A stretch of 17,303 nucleotides of DNA, taken from contig JAAXJP010000541.1 in the NCBI GenBank assembly GCA_012269805.1, forward strand, positions 1 to 17,303, given 5' to 3'. Both the position numbers and the translations under genes were made by a program. Source of the DNA: Rubrivirga sp. (GTDB taxonomy: Bacteria; Bacteroidota; Rhodothermia; Rhodothermales; Rubricoccaceae). Below are positions 11,455 to 14,270 of the stretch, in pieces. Below the pieces are notes generated by a model. It did no database searches and was not told the origin of the DNA. It saw nothing but the letters and a program-made list of their open reading frames with translations. Numbering within the stretch: the first letter of the stretch is position 1; each line of letters starts with the position of its first letter.

Positions 11455-12735
11455 ATGCCCATCCACTTCGACCGCCAGCACGCCGCCGACGCGCTCGCCG
11501 ATCTCGACGTCGATCGCGACGCCCTCGACGCCGACGTCCTCGACGCCCACCAGCGCGTCCTCGACGGCGAGACCGCCAGCCCCGGGATGCTCGGTTGGCG
11601 GCAGATGCTCCTCGATCCCGACGACGCGCTTCTCGAAAGCGTCGCCGAGACGGCCGCCGAGATCCGCGAGCGCGCCGACGTCCTCCTTTGCATCGGGATC
11701 GGCGGGTCCTACCTCGGTGCCGAGGCCGTCATGCAGGCCCTCGTCCCGCCGTTCTCCGACGACGGCCCGGAGATCCACTTTGCCGGCAACCATCTCGGGC
11801 CCGACTACCACGAGCGCCTGTTCGAGTACCTCGACGGGAAGAGCGTCTACGTCAACGTGATCTCGAAGTCGGGGACGACGCTGGAGCCGGCGCTCGCCTT
11901 CCGCCTCGCCCGTCGGTTTCTGGAGGAGCGGTTCGACGACGCCGACCGCCGGATCATCGCGACGACGGACGCCCACAAGGGGGCGCTCCACGACTTCGCC
12001 GTCGAGCGCGGCTACCGCCGCTACGTGGTGCCCGACGACGTCGGCGGGCGGTTCTCGGTCTTGACGCCGGTCGGCCTCCTGCCCATCGCCGCCGCCGGCA
12101 TCGACGTGCGGACCCTGTTCTACGGCGCCGTCGCCCAGGCCCGCGAGCTCACCGAGGCCGCCCCGACCCACCCGGCGCTCCAGTACGCGGCCGACCGCTA
12201 CGCCTTCCACGAGGCCGGCTACAAGACGGAGGTCCTTGCCTCGATGGACCCCCGGCTGACTGGCATCGGCGCGTGGTGGCAGCAGCTCTTCGGCGAGAGC
12301 GAGGGGAAAGAGGGGAAGGGCCTCTTCCCGGTCACGCTCCAGTACACGACGGACCTCCACTCGGTCGGGCAGTACGTCCAGCAGGGCCAGCGCGTCCTTG
12401 TCGAGACGTTCCTCCGCATCGACGACGCGGCCGACGGGCCGGCCGTCAAGGAGGAAGACGGGGACCCGGACGGATTGAACTACCTCGCCGGCAAGCCCTA
12501 CGGCTTCGTCAACGAGAAGGCTTACGAGGGGACGGCCGAGGCCCACGCCGAGGGCGGCGTCCCAAACTGGACGCTTACGCTGTCGCGCCTCGACGCCGAG
12601 ACGCTCGGCCGGCTCCTCTACTTCTACGAGCACGCGGTAGCCGTGAGCGGGACGATGCTGGGCGTCGACCCGTTCAACCAGCCCGGCGTCGAGACCTACA
12701 AGCAGAAGATGTTCTCGCTCCTCGGACGTCCGTAG
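11455..12735 (+). CDS. pgi: Glucose-6-phosphate isomerase
   Basis: This 426-residue enzyme interconverts glucose-6-phosphate and fructose-6-phosphate in glycolysis and gluconeogenesis in the cytosol. Its length places it with the shorter bacterial form (Bacillus-type, about 430-450 residues) rather than the 550-residue E. coli form. Hallmarks are the sugar-phosphate-binding LCIGIGGSYLGAE (78-90) and VISKSGTTLEP (135-145), and signature 1, GGRFSVLTPVGLLP (197-210). The catalytic Glu is in FGESEGK (279-285), the ring-opening His in TTDLHSVGQ (H302), and the C-terminal signature GVETYKQKMFSLL carries catalytic Lys416 or Lys418. A strong hairpin follows the stop. No Shine-Dalgarno sequence precedes the ATG, as for the other genes here. 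Confidence 0.97.
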   Translation: MPIHFDRQHAADALADLDVDRDALDADVLDAHQRVLDGETASPGMLGWRQMLLDPDDALLESVAETAAEIRERADVLLCIGIGGSYLGAEAVMQALVPPFSDDGPEIHFAGNHLGPDYHERLFEYLDGKSVYVNVISKSGTTLEPALAFRLARRFLEERFDDADRRIIATTDAHKGALHDFAVERGYRRYVVPDDVGGRFSVLTPVGLLPIAAAGIDVRTLFYGAVAQARELTEAAPTHPALQYAADRYAFHEAGYKTEVLASMDPRLTGIGAWWQQLFGESEGKEGKGLFPVTLQYTTDLHSVGQYVQQGQRVLVETFLRIDDAADGPAVKEEDGDPDGLNYLAGKPYGFVNEKAYEGTAEAHAEGGVPNWTLTLSRLDAETLGRLLYFYEHAVAVSGTMLGVDPFNQPGVETYKQKMFSLLGRP

Positions 12736-12761
12736 CTCCGAGAACCGACCTTCACGCCACC

Positions 12762-12791
12762 GGGGCCGTGCCGATCTGTCGGCGCGGCCCC
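12762..12791 (+). terminator. pgi terminator hairpin
   Basis: Bases 12762-12774 and 12779-12791 form a 13-bp stem (GGGGCCGTGCCGA with its complement, one G-U pair) around the loop TCTG, 27 bases after the pgi stop. It is followed by a C-rich run and then GCTCGTTCC, not by a true U-tract. It isolates the DnaA-box region from pgi transcription. Confidence 0.65.
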
Positions 12792-12867
12792 CCGCTCGTT
12801 CCGGGCCTGCCCGTCTCGATGTCCGCGAGCGGTCGTCCACCGACCGGCCCAGACGCTCGAAAAAAGG

Positions 12868-12929
12868 CTATCCACACTGTGGATGCCGGTGTGGAAAACC
12901 CCCGGCCAATCGGGGAGGCCTGTGGACGC
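12868..12929. repeat. DnaA-box cluster, left group
   Basis: Four boxes: CTATCCACA (12868-12876), TGTGGATGC (12878-12886, opposite strand), TGTGGAAAA (12890-12898, opposite strand) and TGTGGACGC (12921-12929, opposite strand). The first two face each other across one base as a perfect inverted repeat, ATCCACA-C-TGTGGAT. Confidence 0.7.
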
Positions 12930-12992
12930 ATCGACGGATGGGGGATTCGGACCCTGCGTCAACCCCAGACCGCCCACGGGCTGTGCGACCCC

Positions 12993-13072
12993 TTGTCCAC
13001 ATGCCCCCTAGCCCTCGGCCGGGTGGGCTAGACCCTCGGCCTCCCTGTGGACGAGTGTGGAGATGTGGACGA
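12993..13072. repeat. DnaA-box cluster, middle group
   Basis: TTGTCCACA (12993-13001) is an exact copy of the box preferred in GC-rich actinobacteria. It is followed by three opposite-strand boxes in close succession: TGTGGACGA (13046-13054), TGTGGAGAT (13056-13064) and TGTGGACGA (13064-13072). The starts of the last three are 10 and 8 bases apart, close to one helical turn. Confidence 0.7.
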
Positions 13073-13127
13073 CTCCCTGGAGATCAGTCCTAGCGCCTTC
13101 CTCAGCGACTGGACGGGGAGCTCTCGT

Positions 13128-13213
13128 CGTGGATGGACTCGTGGACAGACAGGGCAGTTGTCCACGGTTCTCCACGAGCGCTCCTGTCCCCCCAGTTGTC
13201 CACGGGATCCACA
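13128..13213. repeat. DnaA-box cluster, right group
   Basis: Weak CGTGGATGG (13128-13136) and CGTGGACAG (13140-13148) are followed by TTGTCCACG (13158-13166), TTCTCCACG (13168-13176), TTGTCCACG (13196-13204) and GGATCCACA (13205-13213). The last four point the same way, toward the AT-rich element, and the final two abut without a spacer. A further box, TGTGGACGG, lies beyond the AT-rich element at 13267-13275. Confidence 0.7.
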
Positions 13214-13264
13214 GCCCTACTACTTCTTCAGCATTCTATTCTTTCATACAGAGTAATACAGAGG
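13214..13264. other. DnaA-trio motif and AT-rich DNA-unwinding element
   Basis: Directly after the last forward DnaA box and a GCC spacer comes CTA-CTA-CTT-CTT (13217-13228). Read on the other strand 3' to 5' this is GAT-GAT-GAA-GAA, matching the DnaA-trio motif of basal origin elements on which DnaA assembles on single-stranded DNA. The stretch 13217-13263 is about 34 percent GC (16 of 47 bases) in an otherwise very GC-rich window, as expected of an unwinding element. Strand opening would start here. Confidence 0.68.
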
Positions 13265-13345
13265 GGTGTGGACGGAGCCCGAGGAGGGAAGCCAGGAGGC
13301 ATAGACCACTGATCGCCTCGGGTATACCACTCGCAGACCGGTCGG

Positions 13346-13358
13346 TGACAGGCTGTCA
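13346..13358. promoter_or_regulatory. Palindrome upstream of the stress-protein gene, possible operator
   Basis: TGACAG-G-CTGTCA is a perfect inverted repeat 57 bases before the ATG at 13416 and 28 bases before the putative -7 element. It could be a regulator site; no cognate regulator is known, so this rests on symmetry and position only. Confidence 0.25.
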
Positions 13359-13386
13359 GTCAGGCTGCTCTGCCGCGTTCTCCGCG

Positions 13387-13394
13387 TACCTTTC
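13387..13394 (+). promoter_or_regulatory. Putative -7 promoter element for the universal stress gene (TACCTTTC)
   Basis: TACCTTTC matches TAnnTTTG except for the last base and lies 21 bases before the ATG, the same distance as the TAGCTTTC in front of glyA. A -33 TTG is not evident. Confidence 0.4.
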
Positions 13395-13415
13395 GAGTCC
13401 CCTCTCCACCCGGCC

Positions 13416-14270
13416 ATGACCCAGCGCATCCTCGTCGTTCTCGATCCCGATTCTGATACGCCCGTCGCAACGGACACGGCCATCGACATCGCGAAGCGGC
13501 ACGGTGGGGAGCTCACCGGTCTCGCCTTCGTCGACAAGGACTCGATTGGGCAGGAGGCTGCGGGCGGTGGCATCGGGTCGATGTACTACGCCGAGCGGCT
13601 CCGAGAGCAACTCACCGAAGAGACGCGGCAGCGGGCCCGCGGGCTCATCGCCCAGTTCACCGAGCGCGTCGAGGCCGAGGGCGTCCGCCACACGGGCGAC
13701 CGCGTGGGCGAGGGCGAGCTGGTCAAGAGCCTGCTCGACGAGATGCGGACGCACGACCTGTTGGTGGCGGGGCGCGAGAGCCACTTCTACTACGCCGACC
13801 CCGACAAGCGGACACACACGCTCGGCAAAGTCCTCCAGGAAGCCGCCGCCGCGACGCTGATCGTCGGGACGGCGCGGCCGGCCGTCTCGCGCGTGGCCGT
13901 GGCCTACGACGGGAGCGCGCCGTCGGCGCGGGCCCTCCAGAAGTTTGCCCACCTCTCGCCGTTCGGGACGGACGTCGCCGTCGAGATCGTCCACGTCCAC
14001 GGTGACTCCGAGGCGGACCGGATGGCGAGCGAGCGGCTCCGCCTCGACGCGGCGGCTTACCTCGCCGCCCACGGCTTCGGGACGGTCACGACGACTGGCG
14101 TCGAGAGCAGCCACCCGGCCGACCGGATCTGCGACCTCGCCCAGGGCGACCGCGCCGATCTCGTCGTCTCGGGCGCCTACGCCAAGTCCGGCTTCCGCAA
14201 GATGATCTTCGGGTCGAGCGCGACGAAGCTGCTCGAGAAGGCCAAGGTCCCGCTGTTCCTGTACCACTGA
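13416..14270 (+). CDS. Tandem-domain universal stress protein (UspA family)
   Basis: The 284-residue protein has two UspA-like halves: residues 1 to about 152 (MTQRILVVLDPDSDTP... to LQEAAAATLIVG) and about 157-284 (SRVAVAYDGSAPSARALQKF... to KVPLFLYH). Tandem Usp proteins act in the cytosol in stress responses; many bind ATP. The C-terminal half ends SGAYAKSGFRKMIFGSSATKLL. This is close to the ATP-binding G-2x-G-9x-G(S/T) pattern, but the second glycine is replaced by Ala (GAYA where GTHG is usual), so nucleotide binding is uncertain. The first half has a longer helical insertion with the sequence YYAERLREQLTEETRQRARG. It is the gene immediately to the right of the probable origin. It is convergent with cardiolipin synthase, with a hairpin between them. 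Confidence 0.88.
   Translation: MTQRILVVLDPDSDTPVATDTAIDIAKRHGGELTGLAFVDKDSIGQEAAGGGIGSMYYAERLREQLTEETRQRARGLIAQFTERVEAEGVRHTGDRVGEGELVKSLLDEMRTHDLLVAGRESHFYYADPDKRTHTLGKVLQEAAAATLIVGTARPAVSRVAVAYDGSAPSARALQKFAHLSPFGTDVAVEIVHVHGDSEADRMASERLRLDAAAYLAAHGFGTVTTTGVESSHPADRICDLAQGDRADLVVSGAYAKSGFRKMIFGSSATKLLEKAKVPLFLYH

Follow-up and report, generated by a model that had tools for sequence, protein, structure and literature searches.

A probable chromosomal replication origin between pgi and a universal stress protein gene, away from dnaA, in Rhodothermales

Introduction

The replication origin of Escherichia coli, oriC, is an intergenic cluster of DnaA boxes with an AT-rich side and does not lie at dnaA. 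Sites of the datA and DARS type likewise hold several DnaA boxes; to our knowledge, neither an unwinding element nor DnaA-trios are to be expected in them. Furthermore, DnaA can serve as a transcription factor. The excerpted text of PMC10225481 places E. coli oriC in the gidA–mioC region. Origins of the Bacillus subtilis type are organized around a basal unwinding system (BUS), in which tandem DnaA boxes are followed by a short GC-rich spacer, 3'-GAT-5' trios and an AT-rich stretch (excerpted text of Pelliciari et al. 2021, PMC8287927). The same excerpts define a BUS by a box with at most two mismatches, a spacer of 0–16 bp and three or more 3'-NAN-5' trios, and report that the distance from the upstream box to the trios peaks at 10–13 bp. 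A word search of the main text of that paper returned neither Rhodothermus nor Salinibacter nor the stem Bacteroid-. Among the literature titles on Rhodothermus, Rhodothermales, Salinibacter and Bacteroidetes combined with origin terms, none was about the origin of this group.

Here, we analyse a locus that resembles E. coli oriC in that its boxes cluster between genes, away from dnaA and beside an AT-rich stretch, and differs from it in its neighbour genes, here pgi and usp. With the B. subtilis-type BUS as excerpted in PMC8287927 it shares the tandem boxes, the short GC-rich spacer, the 3'-GAT-5' trios, a box-to-trio distance of 12 bp (within the 10–13 bp peak) and the AT-rich stretch beyond; unlike that system, it is flanked by pgi and usp and not located beside dnaA, from which it is separated by ~409 kb in a relative of the same genus (G003). 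Several DnaA boxes outside dnaA are also what datA and DARS sites have, but the locus carries an unwinding layout rather than a cluster without an unwinding module. On the combined evidence of boxes, trios, low duplex stability, conservation, gene independence and strand composition in relatives, it is very probably the chromosomal replication origin.

Results

The window, i.e., the whole stretch of DNA that was analysed (17.3 kb), constitutes an entire contig of its genome (G000; 751 contigs, 3.9 Mb). Open reading frames, Pfam matches and the box cluster delimit an intergenic region (12736–13415) as the carrier of the proposed oriC. Its left neighbour is pgi (11455–12735, plus strand; PF00342, E = 5.5e-26) and its right neighbour usp, the universal stress protein gene (13416–14270, plus strand; PF00582, E = 1.3e-24), and the first-pass annotation had thus named both flanking genes correctly. 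Within positions 12868–13275, we counted 15 TCCAC/GTGGA 5-mers, ten of which extend to TCCACA/TGTGGA 6-mers, and both orientations occur; outside this interval, the window has 30 such 5-mers and four such 6-mers. The earlier figure of about fifteen DnaA boxes is fair if weak boxes count: 14 nine-mers match TTATCCACA or TTGTCCACA with up to two mismatches, seven with up to one, and one exactly.

Consensus matching resolved the individual boxes from left to right as follows: CTATCCACA (12868–12876, plus strand, one mismatch), GCATCCACA (12878–12886, minus, two), TTTTCCACA (12890–12898, minus, one), GCGTCCACA (12921–12929, minus, two) and the exact match TTGTCCACA (12993–13001, plus). Three reverse boxes follow at 13046, 13056 and 13064 with spacings of 10 and 8 (13046–13072, minus), then CTGTCCACG (13140–13148, minus, two mismatches) and, on the plus strand at 13158–13176, TTGTCCACG (13158, one mismatch) with TTCTCCACG (13168, two mismatches). 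Beyond a tandem pair at 13196–13213 and the putative unwinding element, the reverse box CCGTCCACA (13267–13275, minus) terminates the cluster.

The many weak boxes, seven of the 14 nine-mers having two mismatches, could suggest that GTGGA words have clustered by chance in GC-rich DNA. This explanation is hardly credible, however: positions 12740–13415 contain 17 5-mers, ten 6-mers and seven nine-mers with at most one mismatch, and none of 500 dinucleotide shuffles of this segment reached these values (means 2.2, 0.37 and 0.11; maxima 6, 4 and 1, respectively). Chance is also at odds with the conservation of place and layout across families described below. The cluster at 12868–13275 is above chance, and the dense TGTGGA/TCCACA words in both orientations noted earlier are confirmed (ten versus a shuffle mean of 0.37 in the intergenic region). 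The cumulative GC skew of the window has its minimum at 13001–13500, a result that carries little weight over a length of 17 kb.

The first-pass annotation had overlooked the feature most in keeping with an origin. At 13196, the sequence reads TTGTCCACG GGATCCACA GCC CTA CTA CTT CTT. The consensus match and a tandem-pair scan identify an upstream box (TTGTCCACG, 13196–13204, plus strand, one mismatch) directly abutting a proximal box (GGATCCACA, 13205–13213, plus strand, two mismatches), and the spacer GCC (13214–13216, plus strand) completes a distance of 12 bp from the end of the upstream box to the first trio. Four DnaA-trios follow at 13217–13228, reading 3'-GAT GAT GAA GAA-5' on the minus strand. 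By the rule excerpted from PMC8287927, the boxes, spacer and trios of 13196–13228 together form a predicted BUS: the box TTGTCCACG, 12 bp and four trios satisfy it. The AT-rich segment that had been seen to adjoin the boxes also emerged from the duplex stability calculation, in which the least stable 30, 50 and 100 bp of the whole window begin at 13233, 13217 and 13215. We propose the least stable 50 bp (13217–13266), which begin exactly at the first trio, as the DNA unwinding element.

To assess conservation, 60 genomes (own and 59 relatives) were searched, and the 39 for which a pgi or usp locus was available were scored for four or more six-mers per 450 bp, no further than 1 kb downstream of pgi or upstream of usp. 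A cluster over this threshold was present on one or both of these sides in 26 of the 39, while the control sides reached it in 0 of 30 (5' of pgi) and 0 of 30 (3' of usp) cases. Absence of the box cluster from this position in near relatives had been named beforehand as a refutation; the cluster is present there, including in G001, G002 and G003 of the same genus. The triplet of reverse boxes, spaced by 10 and 8 as in the window, recurs in G001, G003, G004, G006, G010, G024, G017, G029 and G039, and was not seen in the same-genus G002. At nine of 43 loci, own included, the first trio is followed by a reverse box at a distance of 50 bp (six loci) or 51 bp (three loci). The named best matches of the window's pgi belong mostly to Rhodothermaceae and other Rhodothermales and, lower down, to Bacteroidales and Firmicutes; of 46 such distant loci, nine were scored (L097–L101, L103, L108, L111 and L132), and downstream of pgi these have 0–2 six-mers and lack CTACTA.

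Thirteen of the 39 scored genomes remained below four six-mers. Five of these nevertheless carry a CTACTA run 5' of usp (G005, G009, G016, G043 and G045). In G027, a box with CTACTAC adjoins a different usp match; G013 carries boxes and a CTACTAC run at a distance of over 1 kb from pgi, and in G037 CTACTAC occurs 3' of pgi. G026 (12 TCCAC cores and only three six-mers) and G034 (three six-mers) lack CTACTA, and in G036 the contig ends 39 bp past pgi. In family f4 (G011 and G025; L020 and L018), no cluster at pgi and no usp match were found, and the origin of this family must lie elsewhere than pgi. Judged from these sequence comparisons, the putative origin keeps both its place and its layout across families of the order.

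The boxes lie within the region upstream of usp and, as DnaA can regulate transcription, they could in principle control pgi or usp. Genomes in which the two genes are not together make this extremely unlikely. In G017, G029 and G039, pgi is elsewhere, and the cluster with trios is retained 5' of usp (10, 10 and 9 six-mers per 450 bp), while in G021, G032, G041, G047, G053 and G059, which have no usp match, a box followed by CTACTAC is found ~280–290 bp 3' of pgi. G015 has its cluster beside pgi, with the six listed usp matches all located elsewhere. Since the cluster is kept by usp without pgi in three genomes and the motif by pgi without usp in six, the cluster belongs to neither gene. The genome-wide pattern TCCACR-N2-5-YTACTAC is unspecific (67 matches in 60 genomes versus 171 for the reversed control), and only the 23 of the 67 matches that adjoin pgi or usp by their coordinates were used. 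By coordinates, the 21 unscored genomes of the 60 have the motif 3' of pgi in six cases and 5' of usp in G014.

Box-to-trio geometry was compared across 62 distinct loci or genomes. Of these, 39 are genomes, obtained by merging 30 pgi with 30 usp loci, and 23 are named loci; the other 11 of 34 named Rhodothermales-like loci were left out as being on the same contigs. The tandem-pair caller allowed 8–19 bp without favouring any distance and replaced a BUS caller that missed loci with only two trios and mis-called others. With all repeat seeds, including CAACAA, the distance from the upstream box to the first repeat was 12 bp at 38 of the 62 loci, 13 bp at five and 11 bp at one; 15 bp was called at four, 18 bp at two and 19 bp at one, some of these 15–19 bp calls looking doubtful, and 11 loci gave no pair. 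Restricting the seed to [CT]TACTA gave 35 loci at 12 bp, three at 13 bp, two at 15 bp and 22 without a pair. Among the 38 loci at 12 bp, box starts are 9 bp apart in the window's genus (four genomes) and 8 bp apart in the other 34, the former combined with a three-base spacer and the latter with four bases. The 13 bp group consists of G010, G024, G035, G044 and G056, with NTN runs of 1, 1, 2, 4 and 2, respectively; further on, these loci carry ACAACAAC or CGACGAC words.

At some loci, the repeat itself differs. CAA repeats replace CTA at the trio position 3' of pgi in Salinivenus (L087 and L088) and in L093, while in L085 ACA/CAA repeats come after CTA, as does CAA in Longimonas L091. A CAA repeat leaves the trio strand without any A and hence the trio without its central A. 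Because the pattern CAACAAC is barely above its control (18 matches versus 14 in six genomes), this observation rests on the loci themselves.

Several DnaA boxes away from dnaA could also represent a site of the datA or DARS kind, which titrates or reactivates DnaA, with the origin at dnaA. The region upstream of the genome's own dnaA is boxed as well (contig C278, L032:1173–1590; eight TCCAC cores, three of them six-mers), and four of 31 dnaA loci hold four or five six-mers per 450 bp (G044, G056, G035 and the same-genus G001). The own dnaA locus reaches three per 450 bp, and its boxes probably serve the control of dnaA itself. The clusters at pgi and usp, however, are mostly denser, with up to 12 six-mers per 450 bp, and the tandem boxes, spacer, trios and AT-rich element of the window constitute an unwinding layout. 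In 124 samples from G003, G015 and G019 (2.465 Mb), at least four six-mers per 450 bp occurred only in the three samples holding the locus (12, 8 and 9). G003 and G015 have a single dnaA match each. Elsewhere, two or three Bac_DnaA matches were recorded in 27 of 60 genomes (e.g., G012, G020 and G045), the second mostly scoring near the first and the extra matches being weak in G022 and G054; a putative second dnaA-like gene is accordingly common in the order.

The two placements of the origin were compared by strand composition. Since the own assembly is split into 751 contigs, genome-wide skew was taken from relatives, sampled to 1.6 Mb in the same-genus G003 and to 0.4 Mb in both G015 and G019. 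Raw cumulative GC skew over the first 40 samples of G003 was too noisy and gave no clear V at the locus; we therefore used the skew at fourfold sites per gene, separating coding strand from replication strand, in genes chosen by a simple GC3 rule. The resulting lnL differences are rough, because genes were treated as independent, the GC3 gene choice is simple and the terminus was allowed at 35–65% around the contig. In G015, the best origin was at 1.16 Mb, with the cluster (1.1545 Mb) 0.14 and dnaA 25.3 lnL below it. In G003, the best fit was at 0.82 Mb (R2 = 0.03), with the cluster (0.851 Mb) 1.7 and dnaA (0.442 Mb) 7.2 lnL below; the grid points within 3 lnL of the best (0.66, 0.72 and 0.78–0.86 Mb) hold the cluster and not dnaA. 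Fixing the origin of G003 at the cluster placed the best terminus at 3.22 Mb, about half the contig away. For G019, a first fit gave 2.34 Mb (cluster 3.7 and dnaA 4.9 lnL below), and the addition of 65 kb with a grid of 2.2–2.6 Mb gave 2.44 Mb (cluster 5.1 and dnaA 6.4 lnL below).

Run in part and on relatives, the GC-skew check suggested by the first-pass annotation gave a mixed outcome: an origin at the cluster is clear in G015 and weakly favoured over dnaA in G003, while G019 does not decide. With dnaA some 25 lnL below the best origin in G015 and 7 below in G003, a titrating or reactivating site combined with an origin at dnaA is very unlikely.

Discussion

The box cluster kept at the locus, the skew fits in two of three relatives (weakly in one of them) and the tandem boxes with trios support the probable oriC proposed by the first-pass annotation, and a chromosomal origin of ordinary type, away from dnaA, is the reading that we strongly favour on these sequence grounds. 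By analogy with model bacteria such as B. subtilis, DnaA would bind the box cluster (12868–13213), and the tandem pair (13196–13213) would guide it onto the minus-strand trios from 13217 rightwards. The growing DnaA filament would then stretch and open the AT-rich element (13217–13266), where helicase would be loaded and from which two forks would leave.

The comparison of loci tentatively points to the upstream rather than the proximal box as the element that determines DnaA filament register, as the 12 bp are kept while the proximal box slides. As part of the same idea, for which we would put the chances somewhat below even, a side branch has exchanged CTA for CAA at the same distance, and the single-strand code may have changed with it.

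If the origin lies away from dnaA, origin finding guided by dnaA may misplace it in these genomes. The locus would provide a precise and testable origin in a group whose origin none of the titles retrieved addresses, and the loci of its relatives would represent a natural mutation series of box-to-trio geometry.
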